A stretch of 48,593 nt of DNA, from NCBI GenBank assembly GCA_022684035.1, contig JAJHSB010000036.1, positions 1 through 48,593 on the forward strand, read 5' to 3'. Made by a program: the position numbers and the translations under genes. Source of the stretch: Candidatus Acetothermia bacterium. GTDB lineage: Bacteria; Bipolaricaulota; Bipolaricaulia; UBA7950. The notes beneath the pieces were generated by a model. The model searched no databases, had not been told where the DNA came from, and was given only the letters and a program-made list of their open reading frames with translations. Shown piece by piece: positions 28,105 through 32,579 of the stretch (positions are counted from its first letter, which is position 1; each line of letters opens with the position of its first letter).

Positions 28105-28445
28105 TGTCATTGCGAGAGTTCGGAGAACTCGTGGCAATCTCAAAGAGATAATTCTCGTTTAGATACTAAAATCTGAAGTCTTGCGCAAAATGGGAAGGAA
28201 TTGAAATCACAAACTCCAAACACCAATTTCCAAACAAATTTCAATGACCAATCACCAAAATCTCAAACAGAAAAGCCGGAGTATTTTCCTCGATTGTTGA
28301 CAAATCGCTTATAGAAGTTTGGTTATTGGGATTTGGTTATTGTTTGGAAATTGAGATTTGGTCATTGGGATTTCCGGCTTTTGTCCGGGTTAGGGGCAAA
28401 ACAAACTCTGTAGGATTATAAGCAACGGGATTGCTTCGCAGACTC
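28105..28445 (+). repeat. Inverted arm A (341 bp), partner of 32219-32579
   Basis: Nearly identical to the reverse complement of arm B (about 95 percent by eye), from TGTCATTGCGAGAGTTCG to TTGCTTCGCAGACTC. The arm is itself quasi-palindromic: CAATTTCCAAACAA on one side and TTGTTTGGAAATTG on the other pair over 14 bp, which gives a MITE-like hairpin. Compared with arm B it lacks a 22-bp GC-rich insert. Confidence 0.92.
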
Positions 28446-28607
28446 CATTAGACTTTAATAGTTATTTGGTTCTTCTCCCAAAAGTGTAGTTATTCACAGG
28501 AGGAATAGCTTTTTGAAACCTTAGAGTTGAGAAGGGCATCCGTCTTTCCTGTATAATTTATACTGTATATAACCCAAGTACAGACAAAAATACAGGGAGG
28601 AGACGGA

Positions 28608-28919
28608 ATGCCCAATACTATTATAGCAGATTGGCTCAATCTGCCAAGTGTAAAATTTCATGACGTGATTATTCATGGTAGTTGCACTGACATTCATCCC
28701 TGGCCTGTCGCCAGGACAGGCTTGATAGGGATTACTCTTCTGGATTTACCTGTTCTGGCTGTGAGCAGATGTCATTCTGGAGCTCTCGATTGGCGAGTAG
28801 CCAGGATCAGAGACCTGCCAATCTTTGAGTTTAAGACCTATCTGGTGATAGAGAAACATCGTATCAACTGCCCAAGCTGTGGGGTGAAGGTTGAGAAACT
28901 TGAGTTTGTTGACTTGTAA
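28608..28919 (+). pseudogene. ISL3-family transposase, N-terminal fragment
   Basis: N-terminal 103 residues of an ISL3 transposase: PIFEFKTYLVIEKHRINCPS plus CGVKVEKLEFVD is the zinc-ribbon region of the family. The frame ends one codon into a foreign cassette at 28916. Another oddity is PWPVARTGL, coded by a GC-rich palindromic stretch (CCTGGCCTGTCGCCAGGACA, 28700-28719) that looks inserted in frame. The catalytic core with the first Asp residues is missing. The left end of the element probably lies near 28467 (GGTTCTTCTCCC), and TATAAT at 28552 may be its promoter. Confidence 0.8.
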
Positions 28920-29354
28920 CTACTCAGGAGCCAGGAGCCAGAATTCAGGAGTCAGAATGAAAAGGGACCCAGCCAAGCATTTTCAAGATTTGATTGTTTG
29001 GCAAAAGGCTCATCAATTCGTTTTATCATCGTATCATGTTAGCGATAGTTTTCCACTAAAAGAGATGTATGACCTTACTTCCCAGTTCAGGAGAGCTGCC
29101 ATTTCTATTCCGGCTAATATAGCGGAAGGTTTTAAGAAAAAGACACTGCCCGATAAAGCCAGGTATATGAATATTGCACAAGCATCTCTTGAAGAATGTC
29201 GATACTATCTAATTCTGGCGAAAGATCTTGGTTATGGTGATACTTTACAGTTAATGCCCCTTCTCGAAGAAGTCAGCAAGTTACTGGAAGCCTATACTTC
29301 TTCTATTCTGGATTCTGGATTCTGGATTCTGGCTCCTGACTCCTGAGTGGTTAC
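28916..29354. mobile_element. 439-bp S23 four-helix-bundle cassette with 35-bp inverted ends, inside ISL3
   Basis: The left end GTAACTACTCAGGAGCCAGG (on to 28950) and the reverse complement of the right end GTAACCACTCAGGAGTCAGG (29354 back to 29320) agree at about 31 of 35 positions. Between them lies one gene, for an S23-type protein. The cassette separates an ISL3 N-terminal fragment from its C-terminal part, and about 150 residues of the transposase are missing, so insertion went with deletion. The right end has a short tandem repeat of GGATTCT that codes the C terminus of the S23 protein. Confidence 0.75.
28957..29346 (+). CDS. Four-helix-bundle protein, S23 (23S rRNA intervening sequence) family
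   Basis: 129-residue protein of the S23/bAvd-like group. The sequence FQDLIVWQKAHQFVLSSYHV, then MYDLTSQFRRAAISIPANIA (about residues 38-57), EGFKKK and ASLEECRYYLILAKDLGY are the family core; four helices are predicted from the pattern. Known relatives sit in intervening sequences of 23S rRNA genes and beside diversity-generating reverse transcriptases, where they bind nucleic acid or protein partners. Here it lies in a cassette inside a transposase gene. Start ATG 28957 follows GGAG. The last 15 residues (ILDSGFWILAPDS) are coded by the cassette's right inverted end, so gene and end have evolved together. Confidence 0.85.
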   Translation: MKRDPAKHFQDLIVWQKAHQFVLSSYHVSDSFPLKEMYDLTSQFRRAAISIPANIAEGFKKKTLPDKARYMNIAQASLEECRYYLILAKDLGYGDTLQLMPLLEEVSKLLEAYTSSILDSGFWILAPDS

Positions 29355-30007
29355 GTTATCGCTAAAGTAAGAAGCGTCGAGTTCAAGAAAGCCACTCAAG
29401 GAGAAGAAACAAGTTATCAAGCACCAAATATCTCCTCCTTAAGAACCAGGACAAACTCAAGACAAATGAGAAGGAGCAACTTCAGAAATTGCTTGACCTA
29501 AATGAGAACATAAACATCGCCTATATGCTGAAAGATGACTTGAAAAGACTCTGGGATTATAAATCTCCGGGTTACGCTAACCAATATCTTGACTCCTGGA
29601 TTAACACCGCCAGAGCCAGTAATATTGGCCCTCTTGTGAAGTTTGCTCAGACTCTGGATAGCTACAGACCTGTCCCTGGCCAGGTCCAGGGATACGGCCT
29701 TATTAACCACTGCTACTACCCCATAAACACTGGTAAATTAGAGGGGATGAATAACAAGATCAAAGTGATCAAGCGCACCGCCTATGGTTTTCACGATGAT
29801 GACTACTTTATCTTGAAGATCAACCAGGGATGCTCACCTAGGTACAAGCTAGCTTTTGGAAAGGTGCCCTGCTTGAGATTCAGACCGCCCGTCAGCGCTC
29901 TATCCGGACCGGAGATGGATGTTTTTTTGCGCTCGAACTTTGCTAAAACCAGGGCGCTATTGCTGACGCGGACCAGGGTCAATGTGGATATTGACGTATG
30001 TGGATAA
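29354..30007 (+). pseudogene. ISL3-family transposase, C-terminal fragment with frameshift
   Basis: Begins in the frame VIAKVRSVEFKKATQ, shifts by one base near 29410, and continues KYLLLKNQDKLKTNEKEQLQ and on through LKDDLKRLWDY to the ISL3 hallmark NTGKLEGMNNKIKVIKRTAY followed by GFHDDDYF. An insertion PVPGQVQG coded by a palindromic CCTGTCCCTGGCCAGGTCCA interrupts the usual DSYR-YGLINHC region in frame. After INQGCSP (about 29835) the frame runs into unrelated sequence to 30007. A remnant: no complete catalytic triad. Confidence 0.8.
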
Positions 30008-30256: not shown

Positions 30257-30601
30257 ATGAATAATGTTGTAGAAACGCCAGATGGTAATCTTTCAAAAGG
30301 TATGAGGCAGTTAAACGGTGTGTATACCCAGTCATTCAATAAGAGAGATGATCGAATTGGTCGTCTGTTTCAAGGGAGATATAAAGCAATACTTGTCAGC
30401 AAGGAAAAGATTAGAGAGGCGGTCATGGAATATGGCTACGGTCAGAATAAAATCGCAGAACAACTTGGAATGCATTATTCAACAATAAGTAAATTGTTAA
30501 ATGGCAGAGAGAAATATCAAAAGAAAAACCTGACCCCATGCGTGCGCCATGCATGTGTGCAACCTGGACCTCGAACCTCAAACTGTATTGAATCCGATTA
30601 A
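30257..30601 (+). pseudogene. Y1 (REP-associated/IS200-like) transposase remnant
   Basis: The first 50 residues, VETPDGNLSKGMRQLNGVYT then GRLFQGRYKAILVSK, are the central part of REP-type tyrosine transposases. It then jumps to IREAVMEYGYGQNKIAEQLG and HYSTISKLL, the C-terminal helix-turn-helix of such proteins. The HUH motif, the catalytic Tyr and the region between are missing, so this is an internally deleted remnant. Such transposases move or multiply short palindromic repeats, which abound in this genome. The preceding 250 bp (30008-30256) hold no gene. Confidence 0.75.
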
Positions 30602-31961: not shown

Positions 31962-32218
31962 CGCAATGATCTCCGATAAATAAAGCATACCGTGCCCGTA
32001 CTGAGAATCACGATCCGGTATTCGAATTCATCAAAACTATATCTATTTAAGGTATTTGGGATCGTCCCTGATCCAGAAAGATAAAGATCGGATCTTCCTT
32101 CCTTGTCGGGCTCAGGGACAAGCCAAAATACAGAGAAGGGGTTTACTTAACGAGGGGGACGGAGTTCACGGTTCGGGAATGGTTCCGAGTTCTCCCCTAA
32201 TTCGTCGTCTGTCAGTGT

Positions 32219-32579
32219 GAGTCTGCGAAGCAATCCCGTTGCTTATAATCCTACAGAGTTTGTTTTGCCCCTAACCCGGACAAGCCGGAAATCCCAATGA
32301 CCAAATCTCAATTTCCAAACAATAACCAAATCCCAATAACCAAACTTCTATGAGCGATTTGTCAACAATCGAGGAAAAGACTCCGGCCTTTCTGTTTGAG
32401 ATTTTAGTCATTGGTCATTGAGATTTGTTTGGAAATTGGTGCTTGGAATTTGTGATTTCAATTCCTTCCCATTCCCCGCCTTCGCGAGGACAAGTTTGCG
32501 CAAGACTTCAGATTTTAGTATCTAAACGAGAATTATCTCTTTGAGATTGCCACGAGTTCTACGAACTCTCGCAATGACA
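32219..32579 (-). repeat. Inverted arm B (361 bp), partner of 28105-28445
   Basis: Reverse complement of arm A apart from scattered substitutions, a 2-bp difference near CCGGCTTGTCC, and the 22-bp insert at 32473-32494. Both arms together enclose 3.8 kb with ISL3 and Y1 remnants, the S23 cassette and the GTPase. Confidence 0.92.
32473..32494. mobile_element. 22-bp GC-rich insert present in arm B only
   Basis: TCCCCGCCTTCGCGAGGACA plus AG interrupts the sequence that is continuous in arm A (GCGCAAA then ATGGGAAGG on the complementary strand). Contains the palindrome TCGCGA. The borders are uncertain by 1-2 bases because of shared A residues. Comparable GC-rich palindromes occur in the ISL3 fragments and at 43561-43605. 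Confidence 0.75.

Follow-up and report, generated by a model that had tools for sequence, protein, structure and literature searches.

The DNA analysed here, called the window, is a stretch of 48,593 nucleotides that makes up one contig (C21) of a host genome of 1.56 Mb, which is held in 81 contigs and is about 93% complete. Between two pieces of an ISL3 transposase gene, the window contains a cassette of ~440 bp with a single gene, which encodes an S23 protein. The features of the locus are as follows.

28608-28919, forward strand: ISL3 transposase gene, 5' piece, zinc ribbon (model positions 24-67)
28916-29354, forward strand: whole S23 cassette, from GTAACTACT to GTGGTTAC, delimited by its DNA match to a locus in a Meiothermus MAG (L087)
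28916-28958, forward strand: left arm, with the terminus GTAACTACT and then five heptamers, ending at the start codon
28957-29346, forward strand: S23 gene, 129 aa, four-helix bundle protein (PF05635, TIGR02436; PDB relative 2gsc)
29312-29354, forward strand: right arm, inverted heptamers, which also encodes the S23 C terminus and stop codon
29489-30007, forward strand: ISL3 transposase gene, 3' piece, DDE part (model positions 217-367)

The S23 open reading frame of the window matched PF05635 (E 4.8e-34), TIGR02436 (E 8.7e-31) and the PDB structure 2gsc (E 6.6e-17); Pfam, NCBIfam and PDB are thus in agreement that the gene encodes an S23, four-helix bundle protein. Both arms are built of arrayed heptamers (CAGGAGT, CAGAATT), and in the left arm the heptamers that follow the terminus read, in order, CAGGAGC, CAGGAGC, CAGAATT, CAGGAGT and CAGAATG. 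An earlier note on this DNA had described tight, imperfect inverted ends of 35 bp, with the right end coding the C terminus of the protein. We found that the inverted ends are present and longer than claimed, with arms of 43 nt that are 86% complementary, and that the right arm does encode the last S23 residues, ILDSGFWILAPDS, together with the stop codon. The RNA fold of the whole cassette was computed at -150.8 kcal/mol (z -6.7 versus shuffles). These results confirm that the initial observation was real and that the structure is larger than first described.

The two flanking ISL3 pieces correspond to model positions 24-67 and 217-367 of 370, so that ~150 codons are absent; this coverage bears out the earlier placement of the cassette between pieces of a transposase that has lost that much of its length. 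In a six-frame search, the ISL3 match of the 3' piece ran from 29345 to 29821, with one stop inside. The sole other ISL3 of the host genome, on contig C77, is degenerate and has no DNA similarity to that of the window. The cassette was rejected as an ISL3 passenger, because the same ends occur without ISL3 at other sites and in other genomes: its ends are not ISL3 ends, and it does not travel with ISL3. Directly 3' of the ISL3 remnant lies a further open reading frame (30257-30601), which by eye resembles the terminal part of an HTH-bearing Y1 (REP-type) transposase; a Pfam scan of this frame gave weak HTH-type and NUMOD-like matches only.

Copies of the cassette are present in other phyla. 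The Meiothermus MAG locus matches window positions 28914-29354 at 91.4% DNA identity, and the match stops there; a deltaproteobacterial MAG matches positions 28916-29339 at 85.4% DNA identity. No match was reported in the flanks of either copy, and their surroundings are unrelated, while the terminus GTAACTACTCAGGAG is common to both. Because similarity to the Meiothermus locus ends at the arm ends, we conclude that the boundaries of the window cassette are real. The host labels of the MAG copies could be binning errors; the cassette edge is independent of the label. Together, the sequence comparisons support the view that the cassette has moved between bacterial phyla and behaves as a mobile element. 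With regard to possible carriers, 34 plasmid records matched S23, and no relative of the window's S23 subfamily was found in 50,697 phage records or in an IMG/VR scan.

Within the host genome, similarity searches, on which the copy number rests, revealed 11 near-complete copies of ~160 bp that keep both ends and have lost most of the gene. In these gene-less copies, window positions 28916-29030 are joined to the right arm, and the middle of the S23 gene is thus deleted. Besides these, there are fragments and, on C50, a form with a different deletion. The genome contains a single intact S23 gene; C32 and C51 carry S23 pieces of other kinds. The earlier note had proposed looking for the same ends elsewhere in the genome and had counted an absence of other copies against its view; other copies were found. 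Eight of the 11 gene-less copies lie inside a second repeat family, along with which they were probably copied, and the remaining three stand alone, on C77 and C9. The RNA fold of one gene-less copy has a z of -8.1. The gene-less copy L013 is antisense to its neighbouring gene. For the window copy and the C9 copies, inspection of the flanks alone by eye revealed no empty site.

The gene-less copies resemble MITEs in that they are short and non-coding, have kept their inverted ends and derive from a larger element by internal deletion. They differ in that the one parent with these ends that was found encodes S23 alone and no transposase, in that the ends are heptamer arrays, and in that full cassettes, on which this point was tested, have no fixed target duplication.

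The second repeat family, CCAATGACCAAATCTCAATTTCC..., is inverted around a short centre, has a near 7-nt period and is abundant in the genome. It occurs in the window at 28190-28380 and about 32200-32460 (minus strand), and at loci L006, L008-L012, L014 and L015; an S23 parent for this heptamer-like family was sought and not found. A 46-bp repeat, AAACAAACTCTGTAGGATTATAAGCAACGGGATTGCTTCGCAGACTC, at window positions 28400-28446 and on many other contigs, often adjoins it.

Filled and empty versions of the same site, drawn from cyanobacterial plasmid records, show the presence and absence of S23 cassettes. Plasmids of Trichormus and Scytonema are filled, with AAAAAGTAAT before the cassette and GTAATTAAC after it; those of Nostoc linckia and Tolypothrix are empty and read AAAAAGTAATTAAC, with flanks ~98% identical to the filled ones. 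The filled site has a 5-bp duplication at the stop codon, and in the same spacer Brasilonema has a gene-less copy and Nostoc C052 a truncated one. Among three related plasmids of Nostoc ATCC 53789, one has a cassette after one gene, another has a different S23 cassette one gene on, and the third has neither. Similarly, the cmr2-S23-cmr3 arrangement is filled in Picosynechococcus PCC 7003 and empty in PCC 7002. Two further sites exhibited small target deletions with zero duplication, and in Dolichospermum (L124) a 13-bp direct repeat lies at the cassette borders. Individual sites have duplications of 5, 7 or 13 bp, or small deletions, and the junctions are imprecise. A fixed target duplication was rejected, as none was found in general over 70 full-cassette loci. 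In one genus, the cassettes in the spacer between an acetyltransferase and an aminotransferase gene belong to different S23 families depending on the species, and one of them has remains that resemble another; when we sought an empty version of this spacer in that genus, it was never empty and held only other S23 cassettes.

To describe these elements more generally, we assembled S23 loci from named genomes of many phyla and from 60 relatives; the set consists partly of MAGs, and related loci in it are non-independent. Between co-directional genes, 77 cassettes lie in the sense orientation and 3 in antisense (p 1.4e-19), a bias that may reflect selection rather than mechanism. In the window subfamily, where distance was counted only if an upstream stop codon was found, the left array starts at most 20 nt past, or slightly before, that stop codon in more than half of the loci. 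An AGGA/GGAG word stands directly before the ATG in 35 of 66 loci. The cassette would be read from the transcript of its host operon, with the left arm often supplying the ribosome site, and the two arms would fold into one long stem; in rRNA, RNase III would cut this stem.

Observed are ends that stay fixed across phyla and unrelated surroundings, gene-less copies, sense placement in operons, and filled and empty sites. We favour the reading, to which we assign a probability of about 0.6, that the S23 element is a mobile cassette of ~440 bp, consisting of one S23 gene between inverted arrays of 7-nt words. The earlier note had suggested a minimal mobile unit in the form of a free-standing cassette that has ends of its own, and the cross-phylum copies, the gene-less derivatives and the empty sites of relatives support this.

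The inverted arms are a general property of these loci: in 94 of 126, they exceeded the 95% level of 244 neighbouring control genes (MWU p 5e-36), and about a quarter of the 126 are without clear arms. Both arms have a 7-nt period, with values of 0.41/0.40 at lag 7 and 0.39/0.38 at lag 14, against 0.25-0.29 elsewhere. It could be argued that nothing here is mobile, that the S23 gene has spread by ordinary gene transfer and that the arms are heptamer repeats grown locally by slippage, given that such repeats are common in bacteria (PMC4679880, PMC4692102) and that repeat number differs between Coxiella strains. We regard this as very improbable: the empty sites, found in plasmids nearly identical to filled ones, and the sharp cross-phylum boundaries at the arm ends largely contradict it, and this reading also fits poorly with gene-less copies that keep both arms in one genome and with arms that are inverted copies of each other in most loci.

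The heptamer words vary by S23 subfamily (GGGTTCG, GAGTCGA, GTGCATGG, GGGTGTA and others), and word type tracks the distance between S23 proteins, with a Mantel r of 0.70 overall, 0.53 for hosts of one class and 0.44 for a cross-phylum set (each p 0.0005). Words are mostly common to proteins that are more than 70% identical and hardly ever to those below 50%. We propose that the S23 protein recognises the heptamer words of its own family; such recognition would explain both the joint divergence of word and protein and the mobilisation of gene-less copies in trans. The co-divergence could also arise with no recognition at all, simply because word and protein descend together. Loci of the window subfamily most often have five heptamers on the left side and four to five on the right; to tie this number to the five-fold S23 ring (2gsc) is guesswork. 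As the weakest steps of this scheme, the ring may bring both arms together, and a borrowed or host activity may cut and join, leaving junctions without a fixed target duplication.

Purifying selection acts on the S23 protein (median dN/dS 0.18, 42 pairs), in which a set of polar residues, Q43, R46, S50, N54, E57 and E80, is nearly invariant; these residues may be either catalytic or structural. Both properties, and the repeated use of the same spacers, are consistent with S23 itself catalysing the movement, as a new type of nuclease or as a homing-like protein, with host repair completing the insertions. We consider this unlikely, since S23 is without a known catalytic fold or motif, the invariant residues could simply hold the helix bundle or ring together, and the target sequences are many and different.

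Some S23 genes are themselves interrupted, at conserved NIAEG codons, by another small cassette with ends like TTCACCCCGTGAAATA...TATTTCACGGGGCAGGG. The S23 genes concerned are L196 2620-3351, L198 2317-3047, L199 2443-3250 (minus strand) and L181 770-1510, in genomes G032 and G002. The open reading frame of the NIAEG-site cassette (MYYVYVLRS...) is by eye GIY-YIG endonuclease-like, and short copies without the frame are also present.

An enzyme borrowed in trans would be needed if the cassette were a retroelement without its own reverse transcriptase, in which the transcript folds into the stem, S23 serves as an Avd-like cofactor of the borrowed enzyme, and the copy is inserted by target-primed reverse transcription. 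The sense orientation (77:3) and the variable length of the duplications (5, 7 or 13 bp), or small deletions, fit this model. S23 is also related to Avd of diversity-generating retroelements, another four-helix-bundle protein, through weak profile matches that fall below the cut-offs (bAvd, E 1e-4, 23.1 bits versus 40; DivGenRetAVD, E 5e-5, 23.5 versus 80), and structural homology of 4DWL and 2GSC has been stated (PMC10053308). Unlike in a diversity-generating retroelement, no reverse transcriptase or template/variable repeat is linked to the cassette. Reverse transcriptases are mildly enriched among S23-bearing relatives (11 of 31, versus 3 of 29 others, p 0.03), but they are absent from the other 20, and none was found in the host genome (PF00078, at about 93% completeness) or in a relative assembled as a single contig with four S23 matches (G036). 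The gene-less copy that is antisense to its neighbour is a further point against this model, which we judge doubtful.

A similarly low probability attaches to the model of a DNA element whose arms, as hairpins, are read by a single-strand transposase of the Y1/RAYT kind acting in trans, in the way REP sequences are moved, with S23 as helper or passenger. The hairpin-forming ends, the gene-less copies and the lack of a general target duplication would suit such an enzyme; Y1 transposases are present in the host genome, and the frame at 30257-30601 resembles a truncated one by eye. The cassette has in common with REP/RAYT systems that short inverted intergenic units would be mobilised in trans, yet it codes for S23 and has heptamer arrays rather than single palindromes. 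Moreover, 8 of the 31 S23-bearing relatives had no Y1 match, co-occurrence of Y1 and S23 among the relatives was not significant (p 0.27), no cassette was seen to carry a Y1 gene, and word types follow S23 rather than the host. Co-occurrence in the 60 genomes gave no support to either reverse transcriptase or Y1 as an obligate partner. Of the earlier interpretation, the mobile unit is supported; the results decide neither for nor against the proposed use of another element's enzyme or of a homing-like process.

The mobile-cassette reading also bears on the S23 IVSs of 23S rRNA genes. The Coxiella 23S IVS is 428 nt long and encodes S23; its ends form a stem of 28 bp, and GACAGAT heptamers stand in tandem ahead of the ATG. 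It is excised by RNase III, and earlier authors suspected transposition (PMC4990558). S23 domains are also known from rRNA insertions of CPR bacteria (PMC11270868). The IVSs of Coxiella and Leptospira have in common with our cassettes a sense-oriented S23 frame, a terminal stem and a size of ~430 bp, and tandem heptamers precede the S23 start in both the Coxiella IVS (PMC4990558) and the left arm of the window cassette. In contrast to the IVSs, the window cassette lies outside rRNA, between ISL3 pieces, its relatives lie in protein operons, and the words differ; gene-less copies and empty sites are found here for the non-rRNA class. The cassette is thus not a 23S IVS by location, having the S23 protein, stem and upstream heptamers without the rRNA insertion, but is built like one by its parts. 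At two loci, an S23 cassette that has words of its own is found between the genes for tRNA-Ile and tRNA-Ala, on the same strand (L063 1331-1955, L075 1341-1958), and no rRNA gene was found within the 3.3 kb of sequence around them. The link to 23S rRNA IVSs made in the earlier note is therefore strong in anatomy, while no copy that we examined lies inside an rRNA gene. Given that the Coxiella IVS is reported with the same parts, we regard 23S rRNA IVSs, by analogy, as probably the rRNA-inserted members of the S23 elements.

Heptanucleotide repeats of Xanthomonas, Nostoc and Beggiatoaceae likewise have 7-nt units and are mostly intergenic. In Xanthomonas, GGGAATC heptamers are over-abundant and often form inverted pairs, at 70-75 per genome (PMC4692102), and the Beggiatoaceae repeat is TAACTGA (PMC4679880). 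X. campestris is also the source of the solved S23 protein Xcc0516; the accounts of these repeats covered here make no link to S23. A wider proposal, which we advance tentatively and at somewhat less than even odds, is that the S23 elements of different phyla form one class of minimal mobile DNA, moved by a pentameric ring of S23 that reads the heptamer arms of its own family. Full or gene-less copies of them would then include the 23S rRNA IVSs, the S23 genes found within operons (CRISPR, Suf and others) and many of the long-unexplained heptanucleotide repeats of bacterial genomes. In the literature covered, which included few subscription journals, we found no account of S23 cassettes outside rRNA as mobile elements; because most subscription journals lay outside the search, the novelty of this class is provisional.

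These findings turn the puzzle of S23 and the IVSs, an inserted reading frame without known function, into a testable question about a mobile element with defined ends, empty sites and gene-less copies. The S23 IVSs of rRNA genes appear to represent one habitat of a broader group of minimal selfish DNA. Such a class would explain the presence of S23 genes inside unrelated operons, as in cmr2-S23-cmr3; 23S_rRNA_IVP was listed earlier among the functions in cas loci (PMC3936711). Some of the over-abundant heptamer repeats of bacteria may likewise have their origin in it. With ~440 bp and one gene of 129 aa, the S23 cassette would rank among the smallest protein-coding mobile elements.
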